Program-made: the position numbers and the translations under genes | The notes under the pieces: generated by a model | The model's input: the letters and a program-made list of their open reading frames with translations, nothing else | Database searches by the model: none | What the model was told of the DNA's origin: nothing | In this document: one piece after another, positions 2,040 to 15,094 of the stretch | Layout: each line of letters starts with the position of its first letter | Numbering within the stretch: position 1 is the first letter of the stretch | NCBI GenBank assembly: GCA_946481025.1 | Contig: CAMLNA010000032.1 | Span: forward strand, 1-35,110 | Origin: an uncultured Rivibacter sp. | GTDB taxonomy: Bacteria > Pseudomonadota > Gammaproteobacteria > Burkholderiales > Burkholderiaceae | Length of the DNA stretch: 35,110 nucleotides | Direction of reading: 5' to 3'

Positions 2040-4070
2040 TCAGACGGTGGCGAGCCGGAAGGTGTTGCGCCCGGCCGCCTTGGCTTCGTAGAGCGCGGCG
2101 TCGGCGCGCGCCAGCAGCGCCTCGGGCGCAAGCCGCGCGTCGATGGAGAAGGCGATGCCGACGCTGGTGCTCACCTGCAGCACCAGGCCGTCGGCCAGTT
2201 CGAACGGGCGCTCGATCGCGGCGATGATCTTGCGGGCCACGAACTGAGGTTCGGCGGCGGCGTGCAGCCCCTCGAGCACGACGACGAACTCGTCGCCGGC
2301 GAGGCGGCCGACCGTGTCGGTGGCCCGCACGCTGGACCTCACGCGCCGCGCGAACTCCTGCAGCACCGCATCGCCGGTGGCATGGCCGTAGTTGTCGTTG
2401 ATGGACTTGAAGCGGTCCACGTCCAGGTACATGAGGGCGATCGCCTCGCCGGAGCGGTGCGCACGCGCCACCACCTCGGGCAGTTTCTCGTTGAGCTGGC
2501 GCCGGTTGGCCAGCCCGGTGAGCGTGTCGAAACGCGCCATCTGGCTGAGCTGCTGCTGCACCGCCTTGAGATCGGAGATGTCGGTGGACAGCGTGTAGAT
2601 GCCCGCCACCGTGCCGTCGAAGCGCACGTCGGGCACGTAGGTGGTCTGCAGGTGGCGGGTGCGGCCCATGGCGGTGGAGCTCAGCTCGAACGCCACGCGT
2701 TCGCCGGCCAGCGCGCGCTCGATCAGCTCGCGGCGCTGCTCGTACAGCTCGGGACCGGTGACCTCCAGCACCGTGCGGCCGAGCATCTCGGTGGGCTCGG
2801 CGCCCAGCCAGTCGATGAAGGTGCCGTTGCAGAAGCGGAAGCGCTGCTGGTCGTCGATGTAGGCGATGAGCACCGGCAGGTTGTCGGTGATGTCGCGCAG
2901 GCGCCTTTCGCTGGTCTGGATCTGCTCGCGCACCCTCTTGCGTTCGGAGATGTCGTGCAGGAAGGCGTTCGCGGTCCAGCCGGCATCGGTCTCGAGCGCG
3001 GCGATCGACATCTCGATCGGGATCTCGCTGCCGTCCTTTTGCAGCGCCTGCATCTCGATGCGCTGGTTGAACACGAGGCCTTCGCCCGTGGCCGCGAAGC
3101 GGCTCATGCCCGCCAGGTGCTGTTCGCGATAGCGCTCGGGGATCAGCAGTCCGGCGAGGTCGCGGCCCAGCGCCTCCTCGCGCGCCCAGCCGAAGGTCTG
3201 TTCGGCCTGGCCGTTCCATTCGCGGATGAGCCCCTGGCCGTCGATGCTGATGAAGGCGTCGGGCGCATGGGTGAGGATGCTTCGGATGCGCTGCTCGGAG
3301 AGTCGCCGCAGTTCGGCCTCGCGGTCGAGCGAGGCATTGGTGGCTTCGAGCTGCTCGGTGCGCTGGCGCAGGGCGTCGGTCATGGCATCGAAGCGGCGCG
3401 CCAGGTCGCCCAGCTCGTCGCGCCGCGGCAGCCATTGCCGGCGGGCGGACAGGTCGCCGTGTTCGATGGATTCGGTGGCGCGTTCGAGCGCGCGCAGCGG
3501 GCGCAGCACGCGCCGCGTGAAGAAGAGCCCCTGGGCCGCCGCGAGCAGCACCGTGGCGGCGATCGCGGCCGAGGCGGCGACGTGAAAGCGCCGTTCGGCC
3601 GCACGCTGCGCCTGGGCGGCTTCTCGCGACCAGCGGTAGGCGCTGTCCGACATGCCCTGGATGCCGCCCACGAGCCGGTCCACCAGCAGCTCCTTGCGGC
3701 GATCGGTGAACGGTATCTCCGGCGCATTCGCCAGGTCGGTCAGGCGGGCAAAGAGCGCCGGCAGCTGCCGGGCCTGGTGCTGCAGCTCGGAGATCTCGTC
3801 GGCGCCGAAGGCGGCGGGGGCATCGAGCGCACCCATCAGCGCCGCGTGCCGCACCTGCCACTGCACCGCCGCGCGCTCCTCGAGGTGCAGCGCGTATTCC
3901 TGCGTCAGCACGAGCAGGCCGGTGATCTGGCGCGCGGTGGTCTGCGCGCGTTCCTGTTCGTCGGCCGCAGCGACCTGCTGGCGCGCGCTGAACCACACGC
4001 CCGCGGCCACCACGAGCGCGAGGACCAGCGATGCGGCGACGGAGGCGAGCAGCTGCGTGCGGATCTTCAT
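2040..4070 (-). CDS. Transmembrane diguanylate cyclase (HAMP-PAS-PAS-GGDEF)
   Basis: A 676-residue protein predicted to make c-di-GMP from two GTP. Order: TM helix about 8-28; a helical periplasmic region to about 160; TM2 about 162-184; HAMP to about 240; two PAS domains (about 262-375 and 385-505); GGDEF domain from about 512. The active-site loop reads AGDEF (LAGDEF near 590), a variant found in active cyclases, and an RxxD inhibitory site (RATD) lies five residues before it. ATG at 4070 is chosen because it overlaps the upstream gene's TGA as ATGA, implying translational coupling to the binding-protein gene. Longer upstream starts would run through that gene. Inference: the periplasmic domain reads the liganded state of the coupled binding protein. 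Confidence 0.9.
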   Translation of the reverse strand: MKIRTQLLASVAASLVLALVVAAGVWFSARQQVAAADEQERAQTTARQITGLLVLTQEYALHLEERAAVQWQVRHAALMGALDAPAAFGADEISELQHQARQLPALFARLTDLANAPEIPFTDRRKELLVDRLVGGIQGMSDSAYRWSREAAQAQRAAERRFHVAASAAIAATVLLAAAQGLFFTRRVLRPLRALERATESIEHGDLSARRQWLPRRDELGDLARRFDAMTDALRQRTEQLEATNASLDREAELRRLSEQRIRSILTHAPDAFISIDGQGLIREWNGQAEQTFGWAREEALGRDLAGLLIPERYREQHLAGMSRFAATGEGLVFNQRIEMQALQKDGSEIPIEMSIAALETDAGWTANAFLHDISERKRVREQIQTSERRLRDITDNLPVLIAYIDDQQRFRFCNGTFIDWLGAEPTEMLGRTVLEVTGPELYEQRRELIERALAGERVAFELSSTAMGRTRHLQTTYVPDVRFDGTVAGIYTLSTDISDLKAVQQQLSQMARFDTLTGLANRRQLNEKLPEVVARAHRSGEAIALMYLDVDRFKSINDNYGHATGDAVLQEFARRVRSSVRATDTVGRLAGDEFVVVLEGLHAAAEPQFVARKIIAAIERPFELADGLVLQVSTSVGIAFSIDARLAPEALLARADAALYEAKAAGRNTFRLATV

Positions 4071-8730: not shown

Positions 8731-9540
8731 TCAGCGTGCGGCGGCCAGCTGCCGCAGGGCCTCGGCGGTGGCGGGGTCGGCCGGGAAGAACGACTCGATG
8801 GCCAGCTCGGACAGCGTGACCTCCACCGGCGTGCCGAACAGCGTGGTGGTCCCCAGGAAGGACAGCGTCCCCGCGGGCGTGACGAGCTGGAAGGGCACCA
8901 CCACGCCGGCGTAATCCGGCTCGGCCCCGTTCGGCAGCGCGGTGCCGGCCGGCACCGGGTAGTCCTGCACCTCGGCCAGCAGCGCGGCCAGCACCGGGTC
9001 GGCGGTGAGCTGCACCTGGTGATGCAGCCTTGCCAGCAGGTGCGCGCGCCACTGCGCCAGGTTGGCCAGGCGCGGCGCCAGCCCCTTGGGATGCACGCTC
9101 AGGCGCAGCACGTTCACCGGTGGCTCCAGCAGTGCGGCATCCACGCCTTCGAGCAGCAGCGGCACCACCGCGTTGGCGGCCACCAGGTGCCAGTGGCGGT
9201 CGATCGCGATGGCCGGGTAGGGCTCGTGCGCCGCCAGCACGAGGTCGATGGCCTTGCGTGCCGCCTGCATGGCCGGGTCCGTCAACGGCCGCTCCTGGAA
9301 CACGGCGGCGAAGCCGGCCGCGGTGAGCAGCACGTTGCGCTCGCGCAAGGGGATCTCCAACCGCTCGGCCAGGTGCAGCAGCATCTCGCGGCTGGGCAGC
9401 GAGCGGCCGGTCTCCACGAAGCTCAGGTGGCGCGTCGAGATGTCGGCCTCGAGCGCGAGGTCGAGCTGGCTCATGCGACGGCGCTGGCGCCATTCGCGCA
9501 GCATCACGCCAACGGGTTGCGGGCCATGGGGGTGGTTCAT
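8731..9540 (-). CDS. XRE-family regulator with MmyB-like ligand-binding domain
   Basis: 269 residues. The N-terminal helix-turn-helix is clear: LREWRQRRRMSQLDLALEAD, ISTRHLSFVETGRSLPSREML. The remainder (about 90-265) matches the MmyB-like ligand-binding domain common in proteobacterial XRE regulators (YPAIAIDRHWHLVAANA, NVLRLSVHPKGLAPRL, LSELAIESFFPAD). These are one-component DNA-binding regulators whose effector is usually unknown, possibly a hydrophobic molecule. It starts 36 bp after the MFS exporter gene on the same strand, so it may be transcribed with it. ATG at 9540. Confidence 0.88.
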   Translation of the reverse strand: MNHPHGPQPVGVMLREWRQRRRMSQLDLALEADISTRHLSFVETGRSLPSREMLLHLAERLEIPLRERNVLLTAAGFAAVFQERPLTDPAMQAARKAIDLVLAAHEPYPAIAIDRHWHLVAANAVVPLLLEGVDAALLEPPVNVLRLSVHPKGLAPRLANLAQWRAHLLARLHHQVQLTADPVLAALLAEVQDYPVPAGTALPNGAEPDYAGVVVPFQLVTPAGTLSFLGTTTLFGTPVEVTLSELAIESFFPADPATAEALRQLAAAR

Positions 9541-9576: not shown

Positions 9577-10875
9577 TTACGTGGGAGGTAGCTGCGCGGC
9601 ATCGCGCACCCGGGGCATCGGCGAGGCGACGAGCGCGAGCAGCACGGTGGCCAGCAGCGCCAGGCCCATGCCGCCGAACACCTGTGCCGCCGACACGCCG
9701 CGCAGCAGCCAGCCGGTGGCCGCGCCAGCCAGCGGTGCCAGGCCCATGAAGATGAACATGAACAAACTCATCGTGCGGCCCAGCAACCGTCGCGGCACGC
9801 GCTGCTGGATCCAGGTGAACACGCTCACCTGGATGAACCCGCCCAGCAGGCCGATGGCCAGCAGCAGTGTGGCGGCCTGCCAGCTCGCCTGGACGAACGC
9901 CATGGGCAGGAACAGCAGGCCCACCAGCGCGTCCACCAGAAGCAGGGTCGTGCCCAGGCCGCCGGCGCGCAGGCCCGGACGCGCCGCCGACAGCGCCATG
10001 CCGGCCAGCGTGCCGGCGCCGTGCGCACCCATCAGCAGCCCGAAGCCGCCGGCACCCACGCCGAGCTGCACGGTCGCGAGCACGGGCATGGCGACCTGCA
10101 CCGGCCCGGAGACCAGCAGGGCGACGATCGACCAGTAGAGGAAGCAGGTGCGCAACTCGCGGTCCTGCCAGCAGGCGCGAAGTCCTTCGGCCACGTCAGC
10201 CAGCATGGCGCGCCGCGCCGCGGTGCCCGGCTCGGCCGCGGGTGCGCGGGTGGGCACCTTCGCGAGCGTCCAGGCCGACAGCGCATAGCTTGCCGCGTCG
10301 AATCCGAAGGCCAGGGCGAGGCCGGCCGCATCGGCGCCGGTACCGGCGGCGGTGTCGCCGAACAGCGCGATCAGCGCGCCCGCCAGCAGCGGGCCGATGA
10401 AGAAGGTGAGCTGGCGCAGGCTCATCATCAGCCCGTTGGCGGCCTGCAGCCTTTCGGGCGGCACCACGTGCGGCAGCATCGACGTGCCGGCCGGGATGCT
10501 GAATGCGGTGGCCACGCCGATGCCGGCGGCCAGCGCATAGACCATCCACAGCGACAGGCTGCCTGCGACCACCAGCGCGGCCAGCACAGCCAGCAGCACG
10601 GTGTTCACATGCTTGGTGAGCATCAGCACGCGCTTGGGCGAGTAGCGGTCGACGAAGGCGCCGCCCACCAGCAGCAGCAGCGCCCGCGGCACGCTGATGA
10701 CCGCCAGCACGGTGCCCAGCACCAGCGGATCACCGGTCATGCGCAGCACGAGCCACGGCAGGGCCACCAGCGTGAACTGGTCGCCCAGCATCGAAATGAA
10801 TGCGCCGCCCATCCACCAGCGGAAGTTGGGCCTGGCGTCTGCAGTGCGGCGTGGGGGAGTTGCCTGGGAATCCAT
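9577..10875 (-). CDS. MFS exporter, probable drug efflux pump
   Basis: 432 residues with about 12 hydrophobic helices and the typical opening of an MFS exporter (FRWWMGGAFISMLGDQFTLVALPWLVL). Motif A-like FVDRYSPKRVLM follows TM2. It has the layout of EntS/macrolide-efflux-type MFS proteins. ATG at 10875 is preferred over the longer frame because AAGGA lies 7 nt upstream and because the longer start at 10917 would lie inside the promoter dyad at 10912-10928. A MerR/TipAS regulator lies immediately upstream and its likely operator sits in the gap, so the pump is probably induced by a compound the regulator binds. The substrate is unknown. Confidence 0.88.
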   Translation of the reverse strand: MDSQATPPRRTADARPNFRWWMGGAFISMLGDQFTLVALPWLVLRMTGDPLVLGTVLAVISVPRALLLLVGGAFVDRYSPKRVLMLTKHVNTVLLAVLAALVVAGSLSLWMVYALAAGIGVATAFSIPAGTSMLPHVVPPERLQAANGLMMSLRQLTFFIGPLLAGALIALFGDTAAGTGADAAGLALAFGFDAASYALSAWTLAKVPTRAPAAEPGTAARRAMLADVAEGLRACWQDRELRTCFLYWSIVALLVSGPVQVAMPVLATVQLGVGAGGFGLLMGAHGAGTLAGMALSAARPGLRAGGLGTTLLLVDALVGLLFLPMAFVQASWQAATLLLAIGLLGGFIQVSVFTWIQQRVPRRLLGRTMSLFMFIFMGLAPLAGAATGWLLRGVSAAQVFGGMGLALLATVLLALVASPMPRVRDAAQLPPT

Positions 10876-10902
10876 GGTGAGTCCTTGCCTGAAACGGCTC
10901 GG

Positions 10903-10933
10903 ACTGTGAAGCCTCACGTTGCGTGAGGGTCAA
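10903..10933 (-). promoter_or_regulatory. MerR-type promoter with TipA-like operator driving the MFS gene
   Basis: On the minus strand: -35 TTGACC (10933 to 10928), a 19-bp spacer (10927 to 10909), then -10 CACAGT (10908 to 10903). A perfect dyad CCTCACGTTGCGTGAGG (10912-10928, 7-bp arms, 3-bp centre) fills the spacer. The overlong 19-bp spacer with a central dyad is the hallmark of promoters activated by MerR-family proteins. The dyad closely resembles the Streptomyces tipA operator as I recall it. The -35 contains the TGA stop codon of the MerR gene. The expected transcript start is about 15-20 nt before the MFS ATG. Confidence 0.75.
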
Positions 10934-11943
10934 GCTTCCTGTCGCTCGGCGGCCTTGCGGGCTTCCTGCAGGAAGGCGCGCACCGGCGGTTCGAGCATCC
11001 CCGTGGCCGCCAGCATCGGTTCGTTGTCATAGGCGCTCAGCAGGGCCTGCTGCACTGCCGTGTCGCCGCCGGTCAGGCGGTCGAGCAGGGCCTGCCGGCG
11101 TTGCACCAGGGCCTGCGCCGCGCGCCCTGCCGGTGCGCCGCCGCGGCGCATCAGGGCCCGGGCGTCGCGGTTCAATGCCTGCCAGTCCTCGTCGGCCACG
11201 TTGCCGAAGCGGCGCAACTGCTCGATGTCGAAATACTTGGAAAGCACCGCCATGCGCGCGTTGCTGGCCGCGCGCACATAGCGCGTCATGGCGAGGTCGG
11301 GCCCTTCTCCGCGCAACGCCTGGGCGTCGCGCTCGTACATCTCGCCCCAGCGGGCCATCAAGTCGAAGTCGCCGTTCATCCAGCGCAGCATCAGGCGCAT
11401 CCACCGGTGGATCACCGGCTGGATCTGCGGCGAGTCGGGCGGCACGCCGCGCTCCATGGCGTCTCGCACCGCGGCGAAGAGCGGCGGCCATTCGGGCTTC
11501 ACCTTCTGGTAGTTCTCGAAGATGGTCTTGAGCTCGGCCGCGCTGAAGTACTTGCCGTAGGTGGCCATCAGCGACAGCGAGGCCAGCAGGTCGCGCGTCT
11601 CCGGCTGCGCGCCCTGGGCGAACCGTTCCTGCAGCAGCGCGAGGCGGCTGCGCAGCTCGGTGGCCTGGGCGATGTCGTGGTCGAGCGCGCGGATCTGGCG
11701 CGCAATGATCGCGGGCAGCGACTCGCCGCCGTCGGCCAGCAGCGTGCCGACCTCGGCGAGGCCCAGGCCCAGATGGCGCAAGGCCTGAACCGCATGCAGC
11801 CGTGCCACGTCGGCATGGCTGTAGAGGCGGTAGCCGGCCTCGGAACGGGCAGAGGGGCACAGCAGGCCGATGCTGTCGTAGTGGTGCAGGGTGCGCACCG
11901 TGAGCCCGGTGTGCCGGGCCAGCTCTCCTACCTTCAGCAGCAC
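10930..11943 (-). CDS. MerR-family regulator with TipAS-like drug-binding domain
   Basis: 337 residues. The MerR DNA-binding domain is textbook: KVGELARHTGLTVRTLHHYDSIGLL, then GYRLYSHADVARLHAVQALRHLGLGLAEV, and a dimerisation coiled coil (about 75-115). The C-terminal part has the TipAS layout (YGKYFSAAEL, EWPPLFAAVRDAMERGVPPDSP, IHRWMRL), the all-helical fold that binds thiopeptides and albicidin in TipA and AlbA. At 337 residues it is longer than TipAL, with extra helical sequence at the C-terminus. The start is GTG at 11943; no ATG fits. It ends 54 bp before the MFS gene, which it probably activates. Confidence 0.9.
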   Translation of the reverse strand: MLLKVGELARHTGLTVRTLHHYDSIGLLCPSARSEAGYRLYSHADVARLHAVQALRHLGLGLAEVGTLLADGGESLPAIIARQIRALDHDIAQATELRSRLALLQERFAQGAQPETRDLLASLSLMATYGKYFSAAELKTIFENYQKVKPEWPPLFAAVRDAMERGVPPDSPQIQPVIHRWMRLMLRWMNGDFDLMARWGEMYERDAQALRGEGPDLAMTRYVRAASNARMAVLSKYFDIEQLRRFGNVADEDWQALNRDARALMRRGGAPAGRAAQALVQRRQALLDRLTGGDTAVQQALLSAYDNEPMLAATGMLEPPVRAFLQEARKAAERQEA

Positions 11944-12066: not shown

Positions 12067-12477
12067 ATGAACATGTTCCGTCCCTCCACCCTGCTGCGTC
12101 GAACCCTGGCCGTGGATGCCGCCACCGGCGCCGCCTGCGGCGCGCTGATGGTGCTGACGCAGGGCCCGCTTGCCGATCTGCTGGGCCTGCCGGCGCCGCT
12201 GCTGCACTACGCCGGCCTCGGCCTGCTGCCCTTTGCCGCCGCGTTGCTGCTGATGGCGCTGGGCGAGGCCCTGCCGCGTGCGGCGGTGTGGGTGGTGATC
12301 GCCTGCAATGTGGGCTGGGTGCTCGGCTGCCTGGGCTTGCTCGTGGGTTCGTGGGTGTCGCCCACCTTCCTTGGCCAGGCCTTCCTCGTGGTGCAGATCG
12401 TCGTCGTGCTGGCGCTGACGGAGCTCGAGTTCATGGGGCTTCGCCGCAGCGGCATGCCGCTGCTGGCGGCAGCCTGA
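12067..12477 (+). CDS. Small four-helix integral membrane protein, unknown function
   Basis: 136 residues with four predicted membrane helices (about 13-35, 45-66, 71-91, 97-120) and short loops; no catalytic or metal-binding motif is visible. ATG at 12067 is chosen because AAGGAG (12055-12060) sits 6 nt upstream; the frame is open further upstream but without ribosome-binding support. It is divergent from the MerR regulator gene, with a 123-bp gap containing the short dyad ACCT-GCG-AGGT (11979-11989), and stops 9 bp before a SoxR-like promoter. It resembles small uncharacterised membrane proteins of betaproteobacteria; I do not assign a function. Confidence 0.78.
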   Translation: MNMFRPSTLLRRTLAVDAATGAACGALMVLTQGPLADLLGLPAPLLHYAGLGLLPFAAALLLMALGEALPRAAVWVVIACNVGWVLGCLGLLVGSWVSPTFLGQAFLVVQIVVVLALTELEFMGLRRSGMPLLAAA

Positions 12478-12551: not shown

Positions 12552-12884
12552 ATGCCTCAAGCCGCCCGCAACACTGCATCGCTGTACCGCATCGACAGGT
12601 TCGACGTGCCGGCCTCTGCGCTCGAAGCCTTCATGGAGCGCCTGCGCCACGTGCAGCAGGCGCTCGATCCGCAGCCCGGCTGCCTGCAGAACCTCGTGCT
12701 CGCACAGCCCGGCGAAGGCGGTGAAGCCAGGGTGGTCACCATCGTCGAATGGGCCAGCGCGGAGGCCGCGGCCGGCGCCAGGGCCGTCATGCAGCAGCGC
12801 TACGCCCGGGAAGGCTTCGACCCTGCGGCCTTCATGAAGCAGCTCGGCGTGCGGGCGGACTTCGGCGCCTACCGCAACGCCTGA
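12552..12884 (+). CDS. Antibiotic biosynthesis monooxygenase (ABM) domain protein
   Basis: 110 residues, a single ABM ferredoxin-like domain: YRIDRFDVPASALEAFMERL, then VTIVEWASAEAAAGARAVM. Members are small cofactor-free or quinol monooxygenases and are usually dimeric. ATG at 12552 follows AAGGAG by 6 nt. The gene has its own promoter of SoxR type. In Pseudomonas aeruginosa the small SoxR regulon includes PA2274, a putative monooxygenase, so a role in handling redox-cycling compounds such as quinones or phenazines is a reasonable inference. It converges on the FKBP gene with a 10-bp gap and no obvious terminator. Confidence 0.82.
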   Translation: MPQAARNTASLYRIDRFDVPASALEAFMERLRHVQQALDPQPGCLQNLVLAQPGEGGEARVVTIVEWASAEAAAGARAVMQQRYAREGFDPAAFMKQLGVRADFGAYRNA

Positions 12885-13357: not shown

Positions 13358-15094
13358 ATGACGCAAGACACGCCGCCTCCCGAACATGACGCGCTGCAGC
13401 CCGGCACCCGGCTGGGCGAGTTCGAGATCCAGCGCGTGCTGGGCGTCGGCGGCTTCGGCATCGTGTACCTCGCCTTCGACCACGCGCTCGAAAGGCTGGT
13501 GGCGCTGAAGGAATACATGCCCCAGGCCCTGGCCGCGCGCGGCCAGGGCGCCTCGGTGTCGATCCGCTCGACCTCCCACGTCGAGACCTTCGGTGTCGGA
13601 CTGCGCTCCTTCGTCAACGAAGCCAAGCTGCTGGCGCGCTTCGACCACCCGTCGCTGGTGAAGGTCTACCGCTTCTGGGAAGACAACGGCACCGCCTACA
13701 TGGTGATGCCCTACTACCAGGGCCGCACGTTGCGCGACGTGCGCAGGAGCATGGAGCAGCCGCCGGGCGAGGCCTGGCTGCGCGACCTGCTGGAGCCGCT
13801 GCTGGGCGCGCTGGACGTGCTGCACAAGGAACAGGTCTACCACCGCGACATCGCGCCCGACAACATCCTGCTGCTGGCCAACGGCCAGCCGGTGCTGCTG
13901 GACTTCGGCGCCGCCCGTCGCGTCATCGGCGACCGCACCCAGACCCTCACCGCCATCCTCAAGCCCAACTTCGCGCCCATCGAGCAGTACGCCGAAACGG
14001 CCGGCCTGCGGCAAGGCCCCTGGACCGACCTGTACGCGCTGGGCGCGGTGATGCACTTCTGCCTGACCGGCCGGCCGCCCACGCCCGCGGCGGCGCGGGC
14101 GGTGCACGACGAGCTGCCCACGGCGCGCAGCGTGGCGGCCACGCTGGCCGGCGAAGCCCATCTTCACTACAGCGAGGCCTTTGTCGGCGCCGTCGACGCC
14201 TGTCTCACCGTCCGCCCGCAGGGGCGGCCGGAAAACGTGGCGGCCCTGCAGGCGCTGCTGCGCGGCGAGGGCTCGGCACAGGCGACGGGCGAGGCCGCGT
14301 CGTCCACCACGGCCTTTGCGCCCACGCAGCCTCATTCGTCGGCGCGGCCGGCGACGCCGGCCTACGCCCCCACGCAGCACGAGGCCACGGTGGTGGCCCC
14401 CCGCGCGCCGCAGACGGCCTGGGCGCCGGCCGCCGGGCCGGCGCCGGTGGAGTCGGCCCGGCCTCCCGCGCAGCAGTCCGCGGCCGGACGCCGCCGCTGG
14501 CCCATGGCCGCCGTGGGCATCGTGCCGATCGTGTTCGCCGGGCTGCTGTGGTATGCGACGTCGAAACCCGAGCGCGGCCCGGCCGGGGCGCAGGCGGGCG
14601 CCTCGTCTCCTGCGGCGTCGCAGGTGGCGGTGCCGGCCAGCGGGCCGGCCGAGACGGTGGCGCAGGCTGCCAGCCCGGGCATGGTGGCGGCTTCGCAGGA
14701 GGCTCCCGCGAGCACGGCGGCCGTTGCGCTTGCACCGGCCGCGACGGCGCCGCCGAGCCCGGCACCGGCGGCAGCGCCCACGCCGCGCACGCGTGCCAGG
14801 CCGACCCAGGAGCCGCTGCCCGCGCGCGCTGATGCGGGCGAACCCGACCCGGCGCCGCGGCGGTCGCAGCCGTCTCAGCGGCCTGCACCGGCAGACGCCA
14901 CCGCGGCAGCTGCTGCCGCGCCGGCGGCTCAGGCCGGCCCGCGCAGCCCGCGCGAAGCCTGCGGCAGCCGCGTGCTGCTGGCGCTGTTCCTGTGCATGAA
15001 GCGCGAATGCGAGAAGCCGGAGTTCGCCAGCCACGCGCAATGCAAGCGGGTGCGCGAACAGGAAGAAGCGAACCAGCGGGCCTACCAGCCCTGA
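13358..15094 (+). CDS. Membrane-anchored Ser/Thr protein kinase (Hanks type)
   Basis: 578 residues. The kinase domain (about 22-275) shows the Gly-rich loop GVGGFGIVYLA (about 28), Lys in ALKEY (about 50), HRDIAPDN (about 162) and LLDFG (about 183). The catalytic-loop Lys after HRD is Ala here, a known variant in proteobacterial kinases with an APIEQY activation segment. A low-complexity Ala/Pro linker precedes one TM helix (about 380-400), and a second Ala/Pro-rich region leads to a short C-terminal segment with four Cys (CGSR, LCMKREC, AQCKR), probably periplasmic. ATG 13358 is preferred to an upstream TTG at 13334, though neither has a clear Shine-Dalgarno. No phosphatase or FHA gene adjoins it. 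Confidence 0.88.
   Translation: MTQDTPPPEHDALQPGTRLGEFEIQRVLGVGGFGIVYLAFDHALERLVALKEYMPQALAARGQGASVSIRSTSHVETFGVGLRSFVNEAKLLARFDHPSLVKVYRFWEDNGTAYMVMPYYQGRTLRDVRRSMEQPPGEAWLRDLLEPLLGALDVLHKEQVYHRDIAPDNILLLANGQPVLLDFGAARRVIGDRTQTLTAILKPNFAPIEQYAETAGLRQGPWTDLYALGAVMHFCLTGRPPTPAAARAVHDELPTARSVAATLAGEAHLHYSEAFVGAVDACLTVRPQGRPENVAALQALLRGEGSAQATGEAASSTTAFAPTQPHSSARPATPAYAPTQHEATVVAPRAPQTAWAPAAGPAPVESARPPAQQSAAGRRRWPMAAVGIVPIVFAGLLWYATSKPERGPAGAQAGASSPAASQVAVPASGPAETVAQAASPGMVAASQEAPASTAAVALAPAATAPPSPAPAAAPTPRTRARPTQEPLPARADAGEPDPAPRRSQPSQRPAPADATAAAAAAPAAQAGPRSPREACGSRVLLALFLCMKRECEKPEFASHAQCKRVREQEEANQRAYQP

Follow-up and report, generated by a model that had tools for sequence, protein, structure and literature searches.

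The window (the whole stretch of DNA that was analysed, 35,110 nucleotides) carries on its minus strand a MerR-family regulator gene and, downstream of it, an MFS exporter gene, and the predicted operator of the regulator lies behind the regulator gene, within the exporter promoter. We consider it quite likely that the regulator senses an antibiotic-like compound and switches on the exporter through this dyad-containing promoter, and that it is not self-amplified. What appears to be new here is the position of the operator and the cargo behind it; the circuit itself appears to be of a known kind.

Domains, promoter geometry, conservation, operator position and the persistence of the operator with the exporter can be read from the sequence; binding, DNA distortion, a drug ligand, efflux and the loss of autoregulation are proposed by analogy. 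In the exporter promoter, whose 19-bp spacer is over-long, a regulator dimer would bind the dyad that this spacer contains, and a hydrophobic, antibiotic-like compound would fill the tunnel of the tandem TipAS domain. The MerR domain would then distort the DNA such that the -35 and -10 elements line up, the MFS exporter would be transcribed and the compound would be pumped out. Unlike in tipA, skgA, mta and albA, the regulator would be a steady sensor with the exporter as its output, and autoregulation would have been lost.

The regulator and the exporter

As originally predicted, a regulator with MerR and TipAS domains lies upstream and an exporter downstream. The regulator (10930-11943, minus strand, 337 aa) has an N-terminal MerR HTH (Pfam MerR_1, PF13411, 1e-18) followed by a tandem, AlbA-like TipAS domain (PF07739, 1.5e-16, 61.3 bits vs. 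a cut-off of 23.8, in two stretches), and no GyrI-like domain was present among its Pfam matches. In phmmer searches, residues 4-97 matched the TipA N-domain (2vz4, 3.9e-18) and residues 126-334 matched AlbA (6h97, 1.6e-12). A structure model was obtained with a mean pLDDT of 84.4 and a pTM of 0.60, and in Foldseek searches of the PDB the AlbA drug-binding domains ranked first (E 1.9e-07) and MerR-type N-domains second. Structural alignments to AlbA showed 24-26 percent identity. The TM-score by target was only 0.48, with an rmsd of 13.4 over the domain pair, so that the modelled arrangement of the two TipAS halves may differ from that of AlbA or is unsure. Methionine 126 was invariant in alignment A1 (28 rows: the window's protein and 27 of 120 listed proteins) and is a possible start of an internal short TipAS form; no Shine-Dalgarno sequence was seen before it in the window sequence.

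The exporter (9577..10875, minus strand, 432 aa, DHA3-like) matched MFS_1 (PF07690, 1.4e-26) and MFS_3 (PF05977, 1.2e-19) above the Pfam cut-off, and its best NCBIfam model was TIGR00900 (2A0121 subfamily) with 193 bits, under the cut-off of 319.6. A start at GTG 10917 was rejected because this codon is part of the dyad and comes before the -10 element; the ATG at 10875 agrees with P0123. This GTG belongs to the right arm of the dyad, and the same false upstream start, an ORF artefact, was seen in several relatives.

Further genes surround the pair. An XRE-type regulator with an MmyB-like ligand domain (MLTR_LBD, 8731-9540) follows on the same strand, 36 bases past the exporter, and is possibly co-transcribed with it. 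Beside the regulator lie the divergent gene of a small protein with no Pfam match (12067-12477) and the gene of an ABM-type monooxygenase (12552-12884).

A predicted operator in the exporter promoter

On the minus strand, the regulator gene is followed by TTGACC (10928..10933), a spacer of 19 bases (10927-10909), the -10-like hexamer CACAGT (10903..10908), the likely Shine-Dalgarno sequence of the exporter (AAGGA, 10882..10886) and the exporter, from its ATG at 10875 to its end at 9577. The two hexamers and the dyad-filled spacer had been predicted between the genes, and they are present there (10903-10933, minus strand). The regulator stop codon (TGA, 10932-10930, minus strand) falls within TTGACC, which bears out the predicted overlap of stop and -35 element. 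The 17-bp dyad (10912..10928, minus strand), a perfect 7+3+7 repeat and the predicted operator, reads CCTCACGCAACGTGAGG on the strand of the genes and CCTCACGTTGCGTGAGG on the plus strand, and its first C is the final base of the -35 hexamer. The exporter thus appears to have its own promoter carrying the predicted operator of the regulator, as proposed.

Allowing up to 3 mismatches to the operator pattern, 0.21 sites were expected by chance in the window; the matches were the exact site, its reading on the opposite strand and one site with 3 mismatches at 13723. In the 80 named loci (806,299 bases), 65 sites with at least 12 of the 14 arm bases were found, and 58 of them adjoined a regulator gene, vs. 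14 sites in total when the same bases were shuffled three times in two-base blocks. No exact match to the extended operator pattern was found in the viral contigs searched.

CACAGT is a poor -10 element, with 3/6 matches to TATAAT; its pattern is nevertheless conserved. At 19-bp spacing, each of 67 operators (34 downstream, 33 upstream) has an A at position 2 and a T at position 6, and the TTGA of the -35 hexamer was kept in all 34 downstream operators. The -10 columns played no part in the choice of sites, whereas the TTG of the -35 hexamer was a requirement for any site with a score of 10 or 11 out of 14. A sigma-70 promoter scan gave no match, but this result is uninformative because the scan admits only spacers of 16-18.

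Relation to published regulators and operators

BmrR/bmr and BltR/blt are drug-sensor and exporter pairs in this arrangement, and as proposed for the pair described here a MerR drug sensor acts on the promoter of the adjacent exporter. The ligand domain differs: that of BmrR is GyrI-like, according to an excerpt of PMC7762955, and the window's regulator has a TipAS domain instead. The predicted MerR HTH, the TipAS domain and the dyad in a 19-bp spacer mark the regulator as a member of the MerR family, TipA class. It shares with TipAL of Streptomyces lividans, SkgA of Caulobacter and Mta of Bacillus the MerR HTH, the TipAS domain and the place of the dyad in the promoter. It differs from them in that its TipAS domain is tandem and its operator lies behind the regulator, at the exporter, whereas the TipA-class operator lies at the regulator's own promoter; the excerpt of PMC7762955 describes TipA-class regulators as minimal autoregulated resistance systems.

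The same excerpt prints 26-bp promoter probes for tipA, mta and skgA, with which the window's sequence was compared. The 17-bp dyad matched the tipA probe best (15/17, vs. 14/17 for skgA and 11/17 for mta), and the tipA dyad given in the original prediction proved correct against the tipA operator printed there. Over the 26 bases of the promoter, skgA was closest (21/26), followed by tipA (19/26) and mta (18/26). The original comparison with tipA was therefore right for the dyad. Because the whole promoter is closer to that of skgA, from the Gram-negative Caulobacter, than to that of tipA, finding a TipA-like site in a Gram-negative is no novelty; excerpts of PMC7762955 (skgA) and PMC10189885 (albA) already describe Gram-negative TipA-class regulators with such operators.

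AlbA of Klebsiella oxytoca resembles the window's regulator in architecture, with a tandem TipAS domain of similar length and fold, a MerR HTH and a palindrome in a 19-bp spacer. According to an excerpt of PMC10189885, AlbA binds this palindrome before albA and activates from there with albicidin. The AlbA operator thus precedes albA, and AlbA sequesters albicidin, whereas no upstream operator was found in the window and most albicidin contacts differ.

The operator position probably changed once among relatives

The regulator set consisted of 80 named loci, 25 loci of a 299-genome sample of one family and the window, or 104 loci after removal of duplicates (L098 and L100, which duplicate L006 and L005, were omitted). 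The pattern hits L081-L091 stand outside the position counts, and L004 and L095 have the same protein sequence. A search across the order yielded no further locus (2/300, both already in the set). The tree, rooted at its midpoint, and the position counts were based on the 73 of 104 regulators with at least 300 aa.

The window's regulator falls in a group of 39 tandem-TipAS regulators that is set off by a branch with an SH-aLRT of 100. In 34 of the 39 the operator was found at or just behind the end of the regulator, in 30 of these solely there and in 4 (L003, L010, L096 and L102) also in front. In 3 it lies at a displaced exporter (L104, L106 and L108, the last with another before the regulator) and in 1 (L101) at a convergent gene, where the operator lies 0.5 kb on and reads back over a 168-codon AAA_33 P-loop gene (2504-3010), with a 19-bp spacer and GACAGT. 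No operator was found at L009, which sits at the base of the group. Among the 34 regulators of the other group, the operator precedes the regulator in 28 and an upstream gene in 6. The position, behind or not, changes once on the tree when L009 is not counted.

Among the 31 shorter regulators (<300 aa), the operator was in front in 27 and in both places in 1, and no site of at least 11/14 was found in 3. From the published promoters and these shorter regulators, we infer that the operator in front of the regulator is ancestral. The five rows that carry operators on both sides resemble intermediate states or second gains. In the window, no site of at least 10/14 was found before the regulator, a threshold that does not exclude a weaker or different site. 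With no recognisable operator of this kind before its own gene, the window's regulator is therefore probably not self-amplified. Among the open-access papers listed in the literature searches, none was seen to describe an operator placed after a TipAS regulator or on its stop codon; a 2011 comparison of the BltR subfamily may hold related predictions.

The operator stays with the exporter

A match to the exporter at E 1e-100 or better was found in 24 of the 299 genomes of one family, and 15 of the 24 also carry a tandem-TipAS regulator nearby. It had been asked whether the dyad might be absent before the exporter in genomes that keep the gene pair; a dyad of at least 12/14 was present in 15/15, before the exporter or before an acyltransferase gene that precedes it. 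In three of three genomes in which regulator and exporter are split (by ∼1.2, 1.4 and 1.7 kb, with no acyltransferase between them), the dyad was found at the exporter, 105, 11 and 40 bases before the exporter match, and was absent behind the regulator.

The remaining 9 of the 24 genomes (L132-L140) have a homologous MFS exporter (49-57 percent) and the same operator, but here the operator precedes a short TipAS regulator of 242-271 aa (at least 12/14 in 7 of 9 and 11 in the other 2), so that these loci, judged by sequence, form an autoregulated operon. With the dyad before the exporter unit in 15 genomes and before a short regulator in 9, one exporter family is therefore wired in two ways. 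Since one change of wiring has been mapped and the exporter family occurs in both wirings, the purpose of autoregulation becomes testable.

In genome-wide scans, the exact dyad occurred once per genome, at its own locus, in four of four Burkholderiales relatives searched; the fifth genome, of Pyxidicoccus, has two exact dyads elsewhere and imperfect ones at the locus. With up to 1 mismatch, the five genomes gave 3, 2, 2, 1 and 11 sites, and a reversed-pattern control gave 1, 1, 2, 1 and 6. Counts with a mismatch are thus near those of the control, and only exact sites are informative. The circuit looks local. The Pyxidicoccus locus (L003, a myxobacterium) holds the same module, with the same exporter family at 61 percent, which suggests transfer between phyla.

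Genes behind the operator

In the 34 loci with a downstream operator, the first gene behind it encodes an Acyl_transf_3 membrane acyltransferase (15 loci), an MFS protein (12), an LCM-type methyltransferase (6) or, once, an EryCIII/UDPGT-type glycosyltransferase. An MFS gene follows the acyltransferase in 9 of the 15, and in a tenth (L103) via L119; the flanks of L095 and L105 are too short to be scored for it. In Variovorax L002, L004 and L074, with full flank, the operator and the acyltransferase were found, and no match to this exporter within 5 kb. The operator-fronted glycosyltransferase (L102:65-1396) stands behind a close relative of the window's regulator, and a second operator lies before that regulator.

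In the other group, the operator of four Oxalobacteraceae loci (L021, L027, L038 and L040; near 4016-4038) fronts a spare accD, which is followed by the regulator. Two accD copies were found in 4/4 genomes with the spare and one in 2/2 related genomes without it, and no operator site of at least 11/14 was found beside the housekeeping accD (6/6 copies checked). The spare AccD has a serine at the position of E. coli AccD Met203, where all 6 housekeeping copies have methionine. This position has been linked to andrimid resistance. Spare and housekeeping AccD show 30 fixed differences in all, so that the change at the Met203 position is suggestive only. Duplicated AccD as self-protection of andrimid producers is described in excerpts of PMC6269866 and PMC13151354; judged by title or abstract, none of the open-access articles listed in a search connects a MerR regulator with accD and andrimid. 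The same operator lies ∼0.9 kb before the regulator in L029 and L041; in L029 an LCM-type methyltransferase stands behind it, where accD stands in the others, and L041 may be alike.

It is about equally easy to believe or to doubt a broader reading, in which the TipAS/MerR operator is a portable switch. In one group it would have left the regulator's own promoter, come to lie over the regulator's stop codon and acquired outputs that can replace one another: exporters of the MFS type, membrane acyltransferases, LCM-type methyltransferases, a macrolide-type glycosyltransferase or, in reverse orientation, a P-loop AAA_33 protein. In Oxalobacteraceae an operator of the same kind stands before a spare, altered copy of AccD, a drug target. 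The regulator would have changed from a self-amplifying, AlbA-like drug sponge to a steady sensor, and the cargo would hint at the antibiotic. Genes behind the operator in relatives are possibly protective, and the operator motif offers a handle: the gene behind it marks a candidate drug-response gene, including target duplicates such as accD, and the identity of the drug need not be known.

What the regulator might sense

The same circuit might instead respond to, and export, an endogenous metabolite, lipid or siderophore-like molecule, which we regard as unlikely. The exporter reaches 99.6 bits against the model of the enterobactin exporter EntS and 54.8 bits against that of LplT, but its score is higher for the model of the tetracycline exporter Tet(V), at 119.8 bits, which likewise falls well short of the cut-off. 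The Acyl_transf_3 and LCM genes behind the operators of relatives could act on the envelope or on small metabolites, whereas the glycosyltransferase and, in distant kin, the spare accD suggest antibiotics. Two of the six named aromatic residues of the AlbA tunnel are replaced in the window's regulator (W162 and W195), but four are kept (F16, W27, W56 and W133).

A thiopeptide or albicidin, the inducers originally predicted, would fit the tandem TipAS architecture and the best sequence and fold matches, which are AlbA and TipA; the details of the ligand domain make them highly improbable. TipAS captures thiostrepton covalently through a cysteine, and the sole cysteine of the window's regulator, C29, lies in the HTH part, with none in the TipAS part. 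Of the 18 albicidin-contact residues of AlbA named in an excerpt of PMC6078987, 5 are identical in the window's regulator (F16, W27, W56, W133 and Q205) and 13 are replaced or gapped, as mapped by one pairwise HMMER alignment in which single positions are unsure. AlbA N24, N75, H78, W162, Y169, R181 and W195 correspond to K, G, Y, R, L, L and M; L60, L71, T88, I95 and P134 are also replaced, and L130 falls in a gap. At the W162 position, 22 of the 28 rows of alignment A1 have tryptophan and the window has arginine. The low structural identity to AlbA also speaks against these inducers. Given the TipAS part without a cysteine and the many changed albicidin contacts, the comparison favours neither of the published ligand classes and lends no support to the predicted inducers. 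We infer that the ligand is a hydrophobic antibiotic of another kind.

The regulator stop codon within the operator

Instead of an operator, the dyad might form an RNA hairpin (a terminator or attenuator) where the regulator gene ends, which would suit a perfect inverted repeat right at the stop codon. We rejected this extremely improbable reading because the hairpin has a loop of 3 and no T run, a terminator scan found no terminator-like site and the -35/-10 spacing is fixed at 19. The dyad also remains with the exporter in loci where the regulator is displaced, and in relatives it stands before the regulator. For the operator, sequence economy explains the overlap with the stop codon; that the overlap serves to couple the end of translation to promoter access is only a thought.

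Of the 34 loci with an adjacent downstream operator, 29 have the regulator stop within the operator and 5 have it before the operator. Three registers were observed in the 29 loci: the stop falls in TTGA in 19, as in the window, in GTGA of the right arm in 8 and at the dyad centre in 2. In the right-arm and centre registers, the operator encodes the C-terminal residues of the regulator. Among 120 relatives, those listed out of 2160 hits, the C-terminus LTLT (centre register) was found in 31 and DPHxx-like C-termini (right-arm register) in 15, proportions that differ from those in the 34 loci.
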